A stretch of 64,000 nucleotides of DNA from positions 1 through 64,000 of the forward strand of contig NZ_JAOOPY010000013.1 in assembly GCF_025486315.1 (NCBI RefSeq), given 5' to 3'. Of the stretch, positions 2,437-8,458 are shown in pieces (the first letter of the stretch is position 1; the number at the start of each line of letters is the position of its first letter). The stretch is from Variovorax sp. N23. GTDB taxonomy: Bacteria; Pseudomonadota; Gammaproteobacteria; Burkholderiales; Burkholderiaceae_C. Made by a program: the position numbers and the translations under genes. The notes below the pieces were generated by a model, which saw nothing but the letters and a program-made list of their open reading frames with translations, ran no database searches and was not told the origin of the DNA.

Positions 2437-2467
2437 GCCCCCGCTTCCTACGAATCCAGGAGTCATG

Positions 2468-3679
2468 ATGCGTATCAGCACCAGCACCTTTTACGAGCGC
2501 AACCTGTCTGCCTTGAACTCGCAGCAGCAGCAACTCTTCCGGACCCAGCAGATGCTGTCGGCCGGCACCAAGTTCCTGACCGCCGGCGACGATCCGGTGG
2601 CGGCGACCCGCGTCCTCGGCGTGACGCAGACCCTATCGGAGTCCAAGCAGTTCGCCACCAGCCGCGAACGCGCCATGCTCACCCTGTCGCACGAGGAAAC
2701 GGCGCTGGACAGCGCCACGACGATCCTGCAGGACATCAAGACGCTCACCGTGGCGGCTGGCAACGGCACGCTGTCGGACGCCGACCGTGCGACGCTGGCG
2801 ACCACGCTGCAGAGCAAGCTCGATCAACTCGTCGCGGTGGGAAACACCGACGACGGCAACGGCCAGTTCCTGTTCGCCGGCTACAAGAGCGGCAGCGCGC
2901 CGTTCGCGACCAGCGCCGGCGGCGGCATCCAGTACGTGGGTGACCAGGGCCAGCGCATGATCCAGGTCGACGTGGCACGCCAGATGTCGAGTTCGGACGA
3001 CGGCCGCTCGGTGTTCCAGTCGGTCCAGGGCGGCGCCGGCTACGTGACCTCGGGCGGCACGGCGAACACCGGCACCGGAATCTTCGGTGCGGTGAGCGTC
3101 GTGGATGCCACCGCGGCCAACTACGGGAAGGACTTCGTCGTCAGCTTCGCGGCCGGCGCCTACACCGTCACCACCAACGACACACCGCCCGTGGTGGCGG
3201 CCACCGGCGCCTTCGTGGCCGGCACGCCGATCGCTTTCGGCGGCGTGCAGCTGAGCGTCTCCGGCACGCCTGCCGACGGCGACACCTTCGCCGTCACGAC
3301 GGCCAAGAATGCCGGCACCGACGTGTTCGCCAGCATCGGTCAGCTGGTGACGGCGCTGCGTACGCCACTGCAAGGCGGCGGTGAACCGGCGCGCGCCAAG
3401 TTGCTCAATGCGCTGAGCACCGCCAACGTCAAGGTGACGAACGCGCACGACAACGTGCTGACGATCCGCTCCTCGGTCGGTTCGCGCATGAACGAAATCG
3501 ACGCACTCGACAGCGGCGGCGCCGCGCGCGACCTGACGGAGAAGAGCTACCTCTCGAGCATCGAGGATCTGGACCTGACCAGCGCCATCTCGGACTTCTA
3601 CCAGCGCGAAACCTCGCTCAAGGCGACGCAGCTGACCTTCGCGCGCCTGTCGAACATCGCGCTGTTCAACTACATCTGA
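2468..3679 (+). CDS. flgL: Flagellar hook-associated protein 3 (HAP3)
   Basis: FlgL is the second hook-filament junction protein. The start MRISTSTFYERNLSALNSQQ and the flagellin-like ends (GDDPVAATRVLGVTQ near residue 40, LKATQLTFARLSNIALFNYI at the C terminus) identify it. Two ATGs are adjacent at 2465 and 2468; the second is preferred because CAGGAG at 2457-2462 then has a normal five-base spacing. At 403 residues it is longer than enteric FlgL (about 317); the extra mass is a Gly/Thr-rich mid-domain around residues 185-280. It is co-transcribed with flgK and ends at a hairpin shared with the convergent EAL gene. Confidence 0.96.
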   Translation: MRISTSTFYERNLSALNSQQQQLFRTQQMLSAGTKFLTAGDDPVAATRVLGVTQTLSESKQFATSRERAMLTLSHEETALDSATTILQDIKTLTVAAGNGTLSDADRATLATTLQSKLDQLVAVGNTDDGNGQFLFAGYKSGSAPFATSAGGGIQYVGDQGQRMIQVDVARQMSSSDDGRSVFQSVQGGAGYVTSGGTANTGTGIFGAVSVVDATAANYGKDFVVSFAAGAYTVTTNDTPPVVAATGAFVAGTPIAFGGVQLSVSGTPADGDTFAVTTAKNAGTDVFASIGQLVTALRTPLQGGGEPARAKLLNALSTANVKVTNAHDNVLTIRSSVGSRMNEIDALDSGGAARDLTEKSYLSSIEDLDLTSAISDFYQRETSLKATQLTFARLSNIALFNYI

Positions 3680-3683
3680 CCGG

Positions 3684-3719
3684 CTGACCGGGCAAGGCGC
3701 AGGTGGCTTGCCCGATCAG
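3684..3719. terminator. Hairpin between convergent flgL and the GGDEF/EAL gene
   Basis: The arms CGGGCAAG (3689-3696) and CTTGCCCG (3707-3714) pair perfectly around a 10-base loop. The stem extends with CTGA/TCAG after one mismatch. It sits between two converging genes and includes the stop codon of the minus-strand gene. There is no T-tract on either strand, so the bidirectional terminator role is inferred from position and stem strength. Confidence 0.5.
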
Positions 3720-5467
3720 GGGGCGCCGCCCGACCGCCTGCCTTCGGCCAGCCAAGCCGTCATGGCCGCGCGCGACAGCGGCTGCGCGAACAGGTAGCCC
3801 TGCCCCTTGGCGCAATGGAGCCGCGCCAGCGCGCTCGCCTGTTCTTCCGTCTCGATGCCCTCGGCCACGGTCCGCATGTTCAGGCTGCGCGCCACGAGGA
3901 TCACGGCCTCGATCAGCACCCGGTGGTGCTCGCTGCTTTCGACCTGCATGACGAACGATCGGTCGATCTTGAGCACGTCGATGGGCAGAAGATGCAAGGT
4001 TGCCAGCGACGAATAGCCGGTGCCGAAGTCGTCCAGGGCGATGGTGACGCCCATTGCCTTCAGTTCGTGAAGACTGTGCTGAACGCGCTCGTCCTGCGCT
4101 GCCAGGCTTTCCGTGACTTCCATCTGCAGTGCCGCGGCGTTCATGCCGCTCGACTCCAGCGCCTGCCGGACCTGTTCGGTGTGGTCGGTTCCGAGCAACT
4201 GGGCGCGCGAGACGTTCACCGAGACGCTGCGGGGTGCGTGGCCGCCGAACTGGCGCTTCCATGCCACGCAGGCCCGACAGGCCTCGTTCAGGACGAATCG
4301 GCCGAGTTCCGCGATCAGGCCGGTTTCCTCCGCGATCCCGACGAACTCCAGCGGCGACACGTCCCCCAGCGACGGATGGTGCCAACGCACCAGGGCCTCC
4401 ATGCCCACGCACTGCCGGCTCGCCAGCGACACGATCGGCTGGTAGGCCACCGCGAGTTCGCCGCGGCCGATGGCGCCACGCAGGTCCGACTCGATGGTGG
4501 CGCGCCGGGCGGCGCGAAGCTTCATCGCGGGGTCGAACAGGCTGTAGCCCGCACCGCCCGCGCGTTTCGCTTCGCCCATGGCGAGGCTGGCGTCCAGCAT
4601 CAGGGCGTCGGCGCTGCCGGCATCGCGCTGCCCCAGGACCACGCCCACGCTCGCGCTCACGCGCTCGGGCTGTTGATCGATCGCGTAGGGCTCGCCCAGT
4701 GCGTCGACCACCTTCTTCGCCAGCTGCGCCGCCACGTCGCGGTGCGCCACCTGGCGCGCCACGACGAGGAATTCATCCGCCTCCAGGCGGGCGGCGAGCA
4801 GTCCATGGGCACCGAGCGCCTCGATCCGGCCGCCCGGCTGGACCAGCCGAGCCAGTCGGTCCGCCGCGAGCCGCAGCAGATGATCCCCCGCTGCCTGACC
4901 GCGCGTGGTGTTGATTCGGTAGAAGCGATCGAGGTCGATAAATGCAATCGCGAACAAACCGTCGGGCGAGGTCGCGGCGTGGGCCCGTGCCGCCTCGATG
5001 TGTTCGGCAGCGACCGCGCGGTTGGGCAGCGCGGTCAGCTCGTCGCTGCGCGACTGGTCGTGCAGGCGCTTCTGCAGGTGCTGCTCTTCCTCGTGTACCG
5101 CCTGCGTGATGTCGCTGATCGTGGCCATCCACGTCTGCGCGTCGAGCAGCACCAGCCGCAGGCCCAGGGTCGACAGCAGGGTGCCCGGCTGGGCGCGATC
5201 GCCGACCGGGATGGGCAGCGTCCTGTCGCCCACAGCGTTGCCAGGGCTGGTGTGCGCAGCGGCCTGGGCACGGAGCTCGGGCGCGAAAGGATCGAGCACA
5301 TCGAACAGATTGATCAGGGCGCCGGCCCGCGTCAGCGGCATGAGCAGCGACGCAGCCATCGGATTGATCATGGTGATCTCGCCGCCGAGCTCGGTCTGCA
5401 GCAGCCCGATGGGCACCTGGTAGAGGAACTGGATCAGCGCGTCGTAGTCGCCGCTGTCGGCGCTCAT
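3716..5467 (-). CDS. PAS-GGDEF(degenerate)-EAL c-di-GMP phosphodiesterase
   Basis: This 583-residue protein probably hydrolyses c-di-GMP. Residues 1-80 form a PAS-like domain (YDALIQFLYQVPIGLLQTEL, then MINPMAASLLMPLTRAG). The GGDEF domain is degenerate, with EADEF at 229-233 in place of GGDEF, so cyclase activity is unlikely. The EAL domain looks intact: EALVRW from residue 357, SVNVSRAQLL, MEVTESL, the DDFGTGYSSL loop, LKIDRSFV and AEGIETEEQ. The start codon overlaps the stop of the upstream cyclase as ATGA (5467-5464), indicating translational coupling. Its N-terminal domain is clearly related to that of the cyclase, so the two enzymes may read the same signal. It is the last gene of the PYP/c-di-GMP unit. 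Confidence 0.9.
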   Translation of the reverse strand: MSADSGDYDALIQFLYQVPIGLLQTELGGEITMINPMAASLLMPLTRAGALINLFDVLDPFAPELRAQAAAHTSPGNAVGDRTLPIPVGDRAQPGTLLSTLGLRLVLLDAQTWMATISDITQAVHEEEQHLQKRLHDQSRSDELTALPNRAVAAEHIEAARAHAATSPDGLFAIAFIDLDRFYRINTTRGQAAGDHLLRLAADRLARLVQPGGRIEALGAHGLLAARLEADEFLVVARQVAHRDVAAQLAKKVVDALGEPYAIDQQPERVSASVGVVLGQRDAGSADALMLDASLAMGEAKRAGGAGYSLFDPAMKLRAARRATIESDLRGAIGRGELAVAYQPIVSLASRQCVGMEALVRWHHPSLGDVSPLEFVGIAEETGLIAELGRFVLNEACRACVAWKRQFGGHAPRSVSVNVSRAQLLGTDHTEQVRQALESSGMNAAALQMEVTESLAAQDERVQHSLHELKAMGVTIALDDFGTGYSSLATLHLLPIDVLKIDRSFVMQVESSEHHRVLIEAVILVARSLNMRTVAEGIETEEQASALARLHCAKGQGYLFAQPLSRAAMTAWLAEGRRSGGAP

Positions 5468-6816
5468 GGCAGTACCCCGCCGACCGAGGCGCGGCCCTGT
5501 TGCTCGAGAGCGTCGTCCCAGACGGCCACCCGATCACGCCCCGCAGCCTTCGCGGCGTAGAGCGCGATGTCGGCCTTCCGCAGAAGCTCGTCGATGCCGC
5601 AAGCCCCATCGGTAGAGGTCGCGACGCCCGCGCTCACCGTGCAGAGCACCTGAACGCCATCGACGGTGACCGGGCTGGCCGCGATGTGCGAACGGAAGCG
5701 ATCGGCAGTGGCTTTGGCCTCGGCGAGGGAGTTGCCCGTCAGCAGCACCACGAACTCTTCGCCGCCGAAACGCGCGACGACGTCCGTCGGCGTGAACGTC
5801 ACCGAAAGCCCCGCTGCGAGATGCCGCAGGACCGCATCGCCCGCTGCATGGCCATGCGTGTCGTTCACGGCCTTGAAATGGTCCGCATCGAACAGGACGA
5901 TCGTGATCGGTTCTCCGGTGCGCGTGCGGCGCTGCGCGGCAGTCGATGCGGCGTCGAAAAACGCACGGCGGTTGGCCAGGCCGGTCAGGTGGTCCGACCA
6001 TACGGATCGTCGCAGCGCTTCGTCGGATTCGCGGCGGTCGCTGATGTCACGAATGACAAGGCTGTAGGTGCATTTCGTGCCCGAAACCGCAGTGACCGTT
6101 TCGACCGGCGCGATCAGGCAGCTTCCCCAATAGCGCTCACCGTTGCTTCGCCGAAGCCATCCTTCCTCGAGGTTCCAGCCTGTCTGATCGGCTTCTCGAA
6201 GGCGTTCGAGCGCGCGATGGCCCAGCATTCCGCCTTCTGGATAGAAGTTTGCATAGGACCGGCCGATGGTTGCTTCGGCCTCGAAACCCGTCAGATTGCG
6301 GATGCCGACGTTCCACCCCTGCACGATGCCCTGGTCGTCCAGCGACATCAGTGCATAGCTGACATCGAAGATGCCGGAAGAGATGCTGTGAATCCATGAC
6401 TGGCTGTGGCGCAGCTCCCGGTCGCGCTTGACCGATTGGGTCACGTCGTCGAGAACGGCCATCAAGCGGTCGGCGTCCAGCTTGAGCAAGGTCAGCGACA
6501 GGATCTGCGCATCGTGGCTCGACGTGCCGCCATGGGTCTGGATGTGCATGGCATCGCACACCTTGCCATGCAGGGGCGCAAAGATGCGCGCACGATGCGC
6601 CAGGTCGGGCGCGACCGGCTTCAGCACCTCGAAGAGGTTGGAGAGATCTCCCTGCTTCGAAAGCGGCATCAGCAGCTGCGCGCACAGTGGGTTGATCAGA
6701 ACGATATTGCCATCGCGCGAGAGCTGCGCGAGACCGACCGGCGCCATGTAGAGAAACTGCAGCAGCGCCTCGTGGTCCTGTTCCAAGGTCGACGGGGCGC
6801 TGTCGCCGGGAATCAC
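5464..6816 (-). CDS. PAS-PAS-GGDEF diguanylate cyclase
   Basis: This predicted diguanylate cyclase makes c-di-GMP from two GTP. The start is GTG at 6816-6814, which overlaps the TGA of the PYP-like gene as GTGA and has AGAGG just upstream; the reading frame continues open upstream but only as a shadow of that gene. The product is 450 residues. Residues 10-90 are a PAS-like domain with MAPVGLAQLSRDGNIVLINP, closely resembling the start of the downstream EAL protein. A second PAS domain (GIFDVSYALMSLDDQGIVQG; NLTGFEAEATIGRSYANFYP) spans about 140-260. The catalytic motif FGGEEF is intact at 351-355. The usual RxxD inhibitory site five residues upstream is absent (TPTD), so product inhibition may be missing. 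Confidence 0.92.
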   Translation of the reverse strand: MIPGDSAPSTLEQDHEALLQFLYMAPVGLAQLSRDGNIVLINPLCAQLLMPLSKQGDLSNLFEVLKPVAPDLAHRARIFAPLHGKVCDAMHIQTHGGTSSHDAQILSLTLLKLDADRLMAVLDDVTQSVKRDRELRHSQSWIHSISSGIFDVSYALMSLDDQGIVQGWNVGIRNLTGFEAEATIGRSYANFYPEGGMLGHRALERLREADQTGWNLEEGWLRRSNGERYWGSCLIAPVETVTAVSGTKCTYSLVIRDISDRRESDEALRRSVWSDHLTGLANRRAFFDAASTAAQRRTRTGEPITIVLFDADHFKAVNDTHGHAAGDAVLRHLAAGLSVTFTPTDVVARFGGEEFVVLLTGNSLAEAKATADRFRSHIAASPVTVDGVQVLCTVSAGVATSTDGACGIDELLRKADIALYAAKAAGRDRVAVWDDALEQQGRASVGGVLP

Positions 6817-7211
6817 CGGTGCCTCTGCACGAAGAGATGGCGCAGGGGGATCGCCGGCTCGGCCAGCAGGCGCAACTTGACCTTGAGCGGCCGCATGCGC
6901 AGGGTCAGGACATAGTCGATCGTCTCGTCGAGCGTGCCGCCGGCCTGTGCCGTGTCCTCGAAGCGCTGGGCCACCATGAAATTGTTCATGCATGGCGCGA
7001 CCACGGTGAAGAGGGAATAGCCCACCACGCGATCGAGCGAGAGACCGGCTAACTGCGATTCATGTGCGTTGTAGCGCTGGACGACACCCTCGGCATCGAA
7101 CCCGATGACGCCGAACTCGAGGGCGTCGAGGTCGACCGCAGAAGCGCGACCCAGGAATGCTGAAACGTCGGCGGGGGCCGCGTCGAACTCGATCAAGACG
7201 GGTTGCGTCAT
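6813..7211 (-). CDS. Photoactive-yellow-protein-like PAS protein
   Basis: The 132-residue product resembles photoactive yellow protein (PYP), a blue-light sensor binding p-coumaric acid as a thioester. Without gaps from residue 31, LEFGVIGFDAEGVVQRYN matches PYP residues 26-43. Tyr47, Glu51 and Cys74 (in VAPC) align with PYP Tyr42, Glu46 and the chromophore cysteine Cys69. PYP Thr50, Arg52 and Tyr98 are replaced (Ala, Leu, Leu). RMRPLKVKLRL matches the PYP strand QMTPTKVKVHM. Start ATG 7211 is preferred; a GTG at 7259 in frame would add 16 residues encoded partly by a T10 tract. It lies after fliR and overlaps the cyclase start as GTGA. Light sensing is inference: no tyrosine ammonia-lyase or coumarate ligase gene is in the window. 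Confidence 0.85.
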   Translation of the reverse strand: MTQPVLIEFDAAPADVSAFLGRASAVDLDALEFGVIGFDAEGVVQRYNAHESQLAGLSLDRVVGYSLFTVVAPCMNNFMVAQRFEDTAQAGGTLDETIDYVLTLRMRPLKVKLRLLAEPAIPLRHLFVQRHR

Positions 7212-7224
7212 CAGGGTGGCTTTC

Positions 7225-7255
7225 AAAAAAAAAAGGGAGCCGTCGCTCGGCAACG
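7225..7255 (-). promoter_or_regulatory. T10 tract after a weak hairpin in the pyp leader
   Basis: On the minus strand a short GC-rich hairpin (GCCG-AGCGA-CGGC) is followed by CTCCC-type sequence and ten consecutive T (complement of A10 at 7225-7234). This ends 13 bases before the preferred ATG of the PYP-like gene. It could be a weak intrinsic terminator separating fliR from the PYP unit, or a slippage-prone tract. No convincing promoter was identified in 7212-7383. Confidence 0.45.
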
Positions 7256-7383
7256 TCACGGCGGGTCCGGGGGCTTACCGATCGTGGTCGGGGAGAAAGC
7301 GCAAGTCTTATGTTGTCCAGGAGGCCATCGTGTAGGAAGAGGCGCCATCGCTTGCGACGCCGGGGAGGCAAGTTGGCGCGGGG

Positions 7384-8181
7384 TCATGTCCCGCGCAGGG
7401 CCTGCGTGAAGCGCAGCACCCCGGCCGCGCTTTCCGCGAAGCGCGGCTCGAGGAAGGCGCCGAGGTTCGGGATCAGCAGCAGCAGCATCGCGATGCCCGC
7501 CAGCAGCGTGAGCGGGAAGCCCACGGCGAAGATGCTGAACTGCGGCGATGCGCGATTCAGGATGCCCATGGCCAGGTTCAGGATGAGCAGCGCCGTCACC
7601 AGCGGCAGCGAGAGCATCAGGCCGCTGGCGAACACCTGGGAGCCGCCTTGCACCAGGAACATCCAGCCGCCGGTGGACCAGGGCGCGTCGGCGATCGGCA
7701 GCGTCTGAAAGCTCTCGGCCAGCACGCTCACCAGCAGCAGGTGCACGTCGAAGGCCAGGAAGAGCAGCATGGCGAGCAGGTTGAGCAGACGCCCGACGAC
7801 CATCGTGGTGCCGCCGGCCATCGGATCGAAGAAGGACGCGAAGGACAGGCCCATCTGCAGGCTGATGTACTCGCCCGCTGCCTGGACGGCGGCGAAGACG
7901 AGCTTCATCGTGAAGCCCATGGCCGCGCCGATGAGCACCTGCTGGACGATGATCCAGATCCCCCCGGGTGAGACGATCGGCACGCTGGGCACCGGCCCGA
8001 TCGCCGGGGCGAGCACCACCGCCAGGATGGCGGCGATGCCGACCTTCACCTGGCGCGGCACCGACTTCTCGCTGAACACCGGCGCGGTGCTCATCAGCGC
8101 GAGCATGCGCACGAAGGGGTAGAAGAAGGTGGTCAGCCAGACGGTCAGCTCCGCCGAGGTGACCGAGAAGACGGCCGGCAT
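7384..8181 (-). CDS. fliR: Flagellar export gate protein FliR
   Basis: FliR is an inner-membrane component of the type III export gate, assembling with FliP and FliQ into the helical core through which axial subunits leave the cytoplasm. The 265-residue protein has the expected length and hydrophobic profile. The N terminus has LTVWLTTFFYPFVRMLALMS, and SEKSVPRQVKVGIAAILAVV and MGLSFASFFDPMAGGTTMVV are conserved FliR segments. It starts seven bases after fliQ stops and is the last classical gene of the fliL-R operon; the PYP-like gene follows after about 170 bases. Confidence 0.97.
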   Translation of the reverse strand: MPAVFSVTSAELTVWLTTFFYPFVRMLALMSTAPVFSEKSVPRQVKVGIAAILAVVLAPAIGPVPSVPIVSPGGIWIIVQQVLIGAAMGFTMKLVFAAVQAAGEYISLQMGLSFASFFDPMAGGTTMVVGRLLNLLAMLLFLAFDVHLLLVSVLAESFQTLPIADAPWSTGGWMFLVQGGSQVFASGLMLSLPLVTALLILNLAMGILNRASPQFSIFAVGFPLTLLAGIAMLLLLIPNLGAFLEPRFAESAAGVLRFTQALRGT

Positions 8182-8188
8182 CGAAGGC

Positions 8189-8458
8189 TCAGCCGACGAG
8201 CGTGGGGATGCTGCCGAACAGCTGGCGGATGTAGTCGACCATGTTGCCGAGCATCCACGGGCCGGCGATCACGAGCGTCGCGAAGACCGCCAGCAGCTTC
8301 GGGATGAAGGACAGCGTGGCTTCGTTGATCTGCGTGGCCGCCTGGAAGATGCTGATCACCAGGCCGATGACGAGCGCCACCAGCAGCATCGGTGCGCCGA
8401 GCAGCAGCGCCACGTTGATGGCCTGGTTGCCCATGGTCATGATGGTTTCGGGGGTCAT
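8189..8458 (-). CDS. fliQ: Flagellar export gate protein FliQ
   Basis: FliQ is a small two-helix subunit of the FliPQR export gate. The 89-residue length is typical. The sequence has two membrane helices (AINVALLLGAPMLLVALVIG near residue 15, FATLVIAGPWMLGNMVDYI near residue 60) joined by the conserved polar segment QAATQINEATLSFIPK. It lies between fliP (26-base gap) and fliR (7-base gap) in one minus-strand operon. Confidence 0.97.
   Translation of the reverse strand: MTPETIMTMGNQAINVALLLGAPMLLVALVIGLVISIFQAATQINEATLSFIPKLLAVFATLVIAGPWMLGNMVDYIRQLFGSIPTLVG

Follow-up and report, generated by a model that had tools for sequence, protein, structure and literature searches.

Clade C photoactive yellow protein and a shared N-terminal domain of its c-di-GMP enzymes: a candidate light-responsive operon in Variovorax sp. 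N23

Introduction

Photoactive yellow protein (PYP) is among the most studied photoreceptors, and the excerpts of four papers still describe its signalling partners as unknown (PMC9664959, PMC12826048, PMC5812497, PMC13250908). The stretch of DNA analysed here, 64,000 nucleotides from Variovorax sp. N23 (RefSeq assembly GCF_025486315.1, contig NZ_JAOOPY010000013.1, positions 1 to 64,000; hereafter the window), encodes a PYP homologue directly ahead of a predicted diguanylate cyclase and a predicted phosphodiesterase of cyclic diguanylate (c-di-GMP), and it raises the question of how a one-domain photoreceptor could reach two opposed enzymes. Our reading, to which we assign a rough probability of 0.6, is that in clade C PYP operons the photoreceptor would act in trans on both enzymes through a PAS-fold domain that they share at their N-termini, a feature absent from a preliminary description of the locus. 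The genes and domains concerned are as follows.

6813..7211, minus strand: predicted clade C photoactive yellow protein homologue (pyp); 132 aa, ATG at 7211, stop at 6813
5464..6816, minus strand: predicted diguanylate cyclase (partner PAS, second PAS, GGDEF); Pfam GGDEF 142 bits, PAS_9 34 bits
3716..5467, minus strand: GGDEF-EAL protein (partner PAS, degenerate GGDEF, EAL); Pfam EAL 234.6 bits, GGDEF 93.9 bits
6385..6792, minus strand: shared N-terminal domain with predicted PAS fold, copy 1, in the cyclase; E 3.3e-56 with profile A1, which includes this copy
5051..5464, minus strand: shared N-terminal domain, copy 2, in the EAL protein; E 3.7e-48 with profile A1, which includes this copy

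The cyclase GTG start overlaps the pyp TGA as GTGA (6816-6814), and the ATG of the EAL protein overlaps the cyclase TGA as ATGA (5467-5465). The preliminary description had recognised these two couplings and the placement after fliR, and both are borne out. The span that it gave, 3716..7259, stands at its 3716 end; position 7259 is an upstream in-frame GTG, and the start is placed at the ATG at 7211 because the resulting length is near that of relatives.

Identity of the sensor

The window sensor is, as judged from its residues and neighbouring genes, a clade C PYP. Against TIGR02373 it scores 75.4 bits (E 3.8e-21), below the curated cut-off of 143.05, and it is not assignable as a TIGR02373 equivalog. 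This model does not define the PYP family; according to the available text of PMC9664959, only ~20% of the PYP homologues that BLAST detects fall under it. The homologue is the sole TIGR02373 match in the source genome at E <= 0.1, and among PDB sequences it matches 1mzu, the PYP domain of Ppr (E 4.6e-18). An AlphaFold2 (AF2) model has a PAS-like order of elements, with a predicted local distance difference test score (pLDDT) of 87.

Tyr47, Glu51 and Cys74 of the window protein are equivalent to Hhal Tyr42, Glu46 and Cys69, and the features that define the PYP family (in PMC9664959, homology together with Cys69; also Tyr42 and Glu46) are thus all found in it. In the relatives set used throughout, which comprises the best 80 of 96 relatives, these three residues are identical in 80/80, as are Ala67, Pro68, Phe63, Ile31, Met100, Pro102 and Val105. 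Other positions are frequently substituted, with Phe62 replaced by Leu in 64 relatives, Phe96 by Leu in 79, Phe92 by Ile in 66 and Gly77 by Gln in 71. The window protein has Ile98, Leu102 and Met106 at the positions of 92, 96 and 100 and contains no Trp.

Clade C, in the available text of Xing, Gumerov and Zhulin (2022; PMC9664959), has lost Phe92, Phe96 and Trp119, keeps Met100 and often lies beside GGDEF genes. The same text equates it with 'group 6' of an earlier classification, places it mostly in Proteobacteria, especially Burkholderiales, and reports no characterised member. All three losses, the retained Met100 and a GGDEF neighbour are found in the window, and the class is assigned from these residues and neighbours.

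The preliminary description had proposed a light or redox input that adjusts c-di-GMP and, through it, motility. Redox sensing finds no support, the single Cys of the protein sitting at the place of chromophore attachment. Light input adjusting c-di-GMP is well supported as a hypothesis by the clade C residues and by the near-invariable link to c-di-GMP enzymes; a dedicated tie to the flagellum finds no support in conservation, as set out in the last section.

Conservation of the operon and known systems

The arrangement of pyp and enzyme genes is not due to chance, because the gene found next after pyp is a homologue of the cyclase or of the EAL enzyme in 79 of the 80 relatives; in the exception, L041, the contig ends 152 bp after pyp. 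In 69 of these 79 loci, the two genes overlap or lie within 20 bp of each other. Exactly a cyclase followed by an EAL protein is encoded in 48 of the 80 loci, a cyclase type only in 15, an EAL type only in 10, and other contents in 6. EAL-type-only frames of single-gene length occur in L055, L065, L082, L089 and L114. Of the neighbourhood that the preliminary description had suggested looking for in relatives, the module of pyp and enzyme is therefore conserved (79/80) and the position beside the flagellar genes probed is not (0/80). A separate, coupled sensor gene, which it had regarded as unusual, is the usual form, since 83% of PYPs are single-domain proteins in the available text of PMC12826048.

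The operon type is already published, and it is not new because clade C pyp beside GGDEF/EAL genes is in print (excerpts of PMC9664959 and PMC12826048). Clade C PYPs as described in the former resemble the window in keeping Tyr42, Glu46 and Cys69 and in having GGDEF and EAL neighbours; its available text is silent on a common domain in the partner enzymes and on a flagellar setting for the operon, both of which the window has. The available text of Dohmen et al. (2025; PMC12826048) lists 113 predicted pyp operons, 29 with GGDEF and 22 with EAL, and these likewise pair PYP with such genes; no partner domain is named there, and the window genome differs in lacking tyrosine ammonia-lyase (TAL) and a dedicated ligase. 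The PYP-GGDEF system of Idiomarina loihiensis, as excerpted via PMC9664959 and PMC12826048, also has a single-domain PYP, whose presumed target is a neighbouring GGDEF protein, and blue light lowers biofilm formation in this organism; its PYP belongs to clade A, unlike the one in the window. In the Ppd/Ppr fusions (PYP-phytochrome-GGDEF/EAL or histidine kinase), PYP likewise provides input to c-di-GMP enzymes or a kinase. There it is fused in one chain with phytochrome, whereas the window PYP is a separate 132-aa protein, which would act in trans via a PAS receiver.

The shared N-terminal domain

Cyclase and EAL protein are homologous to each other over their first ~135 residues. The window copies are 40.3% identical over 139 columns (blastp, E 6e-25), and copies from the same locus match in 46 of 49 pairs; the three misses are two misassigned starts (L048, L087) and one locus with two rows both labelled EAL (L112). 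This comparison, like the motif counts given further below, covers 66 cyclase and 64 EAL rows, window included, with downstream genes under 900 bp excluded. The domain follows the consensus E-A-L-x-Q-F-L-Y-x-A-P-[IV]-G-L ... N-P ... L-L-M-P-L ... N-L-F ... A-P. In alignment A1, from which the profile of 22 rows (both window copies among them) was made, a Cys at residue 87 of the first row is nearly invariant (>=90% of rows), and Gly replaces it in the window's EAL copy.

None of the 22 members has a Pfam match over cut-off, the best being an unrelated family at E 0.025, with PAS models at E 0.14-0.3, and a profile search of PDB sequences gave nothing under E 0.1. An AF2 model of copy 1 reaches a pLDDT of 90, and its top Foldseek matches are PAS-bearing kinases, PYP, heme-PAS and LOV structures; by this prediction, the shared domain has a PAS fold.

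A tree of 134 shared domains (same-genus rows added, four enzymes with misassigned or missing N-termini left out) splits into a cyclase type and an EAL type (support 0.89), and 131 of the 134 fall in the group that their type predicts. Of the three exceptions, one is a cyclase with a wrong label and the other two are fusions. Because the two versions of the domain form two groups, the pairing of cyclase and EAL protein looks old.

Several loci vary in what follows pyp. In L088 and L095, a cyclase domain would not fit into the frame that follows pyp (PAS only in Pfam for L088; by length for L095), and in L100 and L111 the genes form a single frame that encodes a GGDEF and an EAL domain, one of each. 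In a myxobacterial metagenome-assembled genome (MAG) of Archangium (L099:858-2445), a clade C-like pyp is followed by the shared domain joined to a HisKA-HATPase_c kinase. In Roseomonas (L115:2913-3992) and Lichenicoccus (L118:10354-11475), the gene after pyp encodes the shared domain, a PAS domain and a ~100-aa tail with no Pfam match.

Co-occurrence of the shared domain with clade C PYP

The shared domain is found intact only in those sampled genomes that also have a clade C-level PYP. In the family sample, 24 of 299 genomes contain it, and the very same 24 are those whose PYP match reaches E 6.2e-19 or lower; it is absent from the remaining 275, among them 6 whose PYP/PAS matches are weaker, at E 1.4e-13 or higher; the E-value line between these 24 and 6 genomes was set after the results were known. 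In the order sample of 399 genomes, the domain is present in 12 and PYP in 12, with both in 11 and neither in 386. One genome of this sample, G460, carries four PYPs of lower score (E about 1e-15) and lacks the shared domain, and another, G526, has just a 28-bit fragment of the domain. The phylum sample of 229 genomes, which like the other two is partly overlapping with the rest, contains the domain in 1 and PYP in 3, both only in the source genome itself; the other two PYP matches lie in ~900-codon frames, and the shared domain is absent there. In 86 pyp loci (the 80 relatives and 6 same-genus copies), all 145 domain copies follow pyp on the same strand at a distance of no more than 3.5 kb, and the rest of these stretches contains none. 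One of the 86, truncated by a contig end, has no shared domain.

Several points weigh against the proposed role of the domain. Only the 10-17 best candidates in each genome received a score in the domain searches, and the 86 loci were found via pyp, with 16 of them supplying 20 of the 22 profile rows. Two orphan copies, L220 and L221, have no PYP on the 13.5 and 14 kb stretches read, their genomes carrying clade C-level PYPs elsewhere. Two opposed enzymes are not universal, as the cyclase-type-only (15/80) and EAL-type-only (10) loci show, some of the single-enzyme loci being cut by contig ends (at least L117, of the cyclase-type-only kind). The window PYP could be unloaded, given a genome without TAL or a PYP-specific ligase over cut-off. 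Finally, operon linkage and co-inheritance are no proof of contact between PYP and the domain.

By eye, the C-terminal part of both orphan frames (L220 from about 8552, L221 from about 6103) is GGDEF-like.

The shared PAS could instead be an independent sensor or a dimerisation piece, with PYP targeting some other site, such as the cyclase's second PAS, or only one of the enzymes. PAS domains commonly sense ligands or dimerise, and the near-invariant Cys, the loci with only one enzyme and the two orphan copies without a nearby PYP would all suit such a role. It would, however, lead one to expect the domain without clade C PYP, which is seen in 0 of the 275 family genomes, and the domain is retained when the output changes (the kinase of L099) and even without a cyclase domain (L088, where the N-domain was found by tblastn). 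We regard this explanation as unlikely.

Proposed mechanism

Beyond the computed gene order, overlaps, conserved residues, GGEEF and EAL motifs, shared domain, co-occurrence and linkage, we infer docking, a light response with its sign, and a phenotype along the following lines. Cys74 of PYP would carry a p-coumaroyl-type thioester, and blue light would isomerise this chromophore and change the shape of PYP. The protein would bind, light-dependently, the shared N-terminal PAS of the cyclase and of the EAL phosphodiesterase, PAS-PAS pairing being a common way for PAS proteins to meet. One enzyme would then be favoured over the other, and the resulting shift in c-di-GMP would change attachment and possibly swimming. 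The shared PAS would be a dedicated receiver, and PYP a detachable input for a cyclase, a phosphodiesterase and, in one locus, a histidine kinase.

A more specific form of this proposal, to which we lend slightly less than even odds, holds that PYP is a detachable subunit and that its dedicated PAS receiver was duplicated onto cyclase and phosphodiesterase (and, in the myxobacterial MAG, a histidine kinase), with PYP exchanging light-dependently between the two versions of the docking site. If true, this would supply the signalling partner so far missing for single-domain PYPs. We found no paper on a shared partner domain of PYP-linked enzymes in a literature search only partly aimed at partner domains. 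With a partner domain pointed to by near-perfect co-occurrence, binding could be assayed simply, using a PYP of ~130 residues and a domain of ~135, and the pair would provide two small, independent components for placing c-di-GMP under the control of blue light.

Chromophore supply

The preliminary description had called for a search of the whole genome for TAL and coumarate-CoA ligase, and this search was negative. The source genome has one PF00221 gene, and it encodes HutH: its 674 bits exceed the hutH cut-off of 539, hutU comes next, and its scores with the tyrosine ammonia-lyase and mutase models fall short of their cut-offs. For the coumarate ligase TIGR02372, nothing in this genome exceeds the cut-off of 334.7, the best match reaching 98.5 bits. 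In the source genome, the chromophore must therefore be provided by a general ligase or come from outside, if PYP receives one at all.

Elsewhere in the family, TIGR02372 ligases over cut-off are found in 4 of 25 genomes, each beside a second PYP that is 31-35% identical to the query. These 25 are the 24 genomes with clade C-level PYP and G246, which has a distant match (G035, G143, G154, G171 and G236 being left out of 30). The idea that a dedicated ligase is restricted to a second, canonical-like PYP held in these 4/4 cases and was rejected on the evidence of the clade C loci themselves, 16/80 of which contradict it. In these 16, a ligase homologue lies near clade C pyp, codirectionally upstream in 6, divergently in 8 and downstream of the trio in 2, and 14 of the 16 are 105-250 bp upstream of pyp. 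A TAL-like gene, so labelled from 36-38% identity to HutH and from position, is near pyp in 6 of the 80. Because ligase homologues and TAL-like genes adjoin pyp in this way, clade C probably binds a hydroxycinnamoyl chromophore.

One possibility is that the PYP of the source genome is unloaded, or loaded only with p-coumarate or a related thioester from outside, and that it reports plant phenolics or light together with phenolics. The sole HutH-type PF00221 gene followed by hutU, the low-scoring best ligase match and the presence of a ligase over cut-off in only 4/25 genomes would fit this. Against it stand the retention of Tyr42, Glu46, Cys69, Ile31, Ala67 and Pro68 in 80/80 relatives, though Phe62 and Phe96 are mostly Leu, and the ligase homologues and TAL-like genes at other clade C loci (16/80 and 6/80). 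General CoA ligases may also suffice, and the available text of PMC12826048 considers it likely that many genomes encode TAL and ligase at other places. We consider an unloaded or phenolic-reporting PYP distinctly unlikely.

Two arrangements recur among these loci. In Methyloversatilis (L052, L056, L060, L067), the order is TAL-like gene, coumarate ligase, clade C pyp, cyclase and EAL gene, which makes a candidate light-to-c-di-GMP cassette including chromophore supply; a Methylibium MAG (L057) looks similar. In L059, L064, L066, L079, L092, L094, L097 and L103, mostly Massilia, pyp and the ligase homologue point away from each other, about 220-250 bp apart. The enzyme of the source genome most like the PYP ligase lies in a cluster that appears by eye to be of aryl-polyene type (L137, G000:C23:355000-367000). 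The first aryl-polyene intermediate is a p-coumaroyl thioester, and on the strength of this chemistry such a cluster is a conceivable chromophore source.

Motifs of the two enzymes

With its intact active-site motif GGEEF, the window GGDEF protein carries the GG(D/E)EF signature and is a predicted diguanylate cyclase; the position of its product-inhibition site (I-site) reads TPTD, not RxxD. The EAL protein has a degenerate GGDEF motif, EADEF, and keeps the EAL signature motifs, including EALVRW and DDFGTGYSS, which mark it as a predicted phosphodiesterase. The preliminary description had read these motifs correctly for the window, but the missing RxxD and the degenerate GGDEF are not general, RxxD being present in 57 of 66 cyclases and GG[DE]EF intact in 44 of 64 EAL proteins examined. 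L212, the nearest same-genus copy, shares both losses; the window lineage may therefore pair a cyclase without product inhibition with a more dedicated phosphodiesterase.

Placement in the flagellar locus

The trio lies between flagellar genes, which are outside the conserved module.

7384..8181, minus strand: fliR, upstream flank; 66-77% identity to the 26 strongest same-genus FliR matches
7212..7383, minus strand: spacer between fliR and pyp, with a hairpin at 7255-7241 before a run of 10 T
2465..3679, plus strand: flgL, converging downstream flank; 70-75% identity to the 10 same-genus FlgL matches found

The spacer contains no recognisable promoter-like site (7212-7383). A terminator was considered and rejected, as the single terminator-like hairpin is weak (fold z-score -1.05) and not above chance, with 1 such site in 3600-8300 against 1.7 expected in shuffles, and gives no evidence of function.

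A light switch dedicated to the flagellum, in which the position after fliR would mean flagellar control and a role in motility, could be argued from fliR lying on the same strand as pyp, 172 bp upstream, and from other GGDEF/EAL genes at the fliR-flgL junction of three same-genus loci. Probes for FliR, FliQ, FliP, FliL, FliM, FlgK and FlgL, which do recover the window's own genes, nevertheless had no match at E <= 1e-3 in the 80 loci, of which 59 have over 9 kb on both sides, or near the 6 same-genus pyp copies, among which the L215 stretch is only 5.3 kb long. The junction is also empty in part of the genus: among 20 same-genus genomes, fliR and flgL converge directly in 5, 5 hold other sequence, and in 10 flgL was not found within the 7-8 kb read. 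The trio has a lower GC content at third codon positions (GC3) than the five flagellar genes measured (0.79-0.87 vs 0.91-0.96), as expected for later arrival in the flagellar locus. A flagellum-dedicated switch is thus quite improbable; the flagellar link is rejected as a conserved feature, and the dedicated connection to motility in the preliminary description is unsupported by conservation.

Placement in the flagellar locus looks like a local event in the window lineage. Strong PYP matches are present in 7 of 61 same-genus genomes, the source genome included, and an eighth match is distant (E 2e-15, in a 768-codon frame). The window cyclase groups with L212, L215 and L216, 3 of the 5 same-genus cyclases (supports 0.94-1.0), and those of L211 and L213 group elsewhere in the tree; simple vertical descent within the genus is rejected on this pattern. 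The simplest history would be that the module is carried by part of the genus and settled in the flagellar locus in the window lineage.

At the same junction, L139, L140 and L149 have unrelated GGDEF and/or EAL genes between fliR and flgL, 27-35% identical to those of the window, and the fliR-flgL junction seems to gather c-di-GMP genes in this genus.

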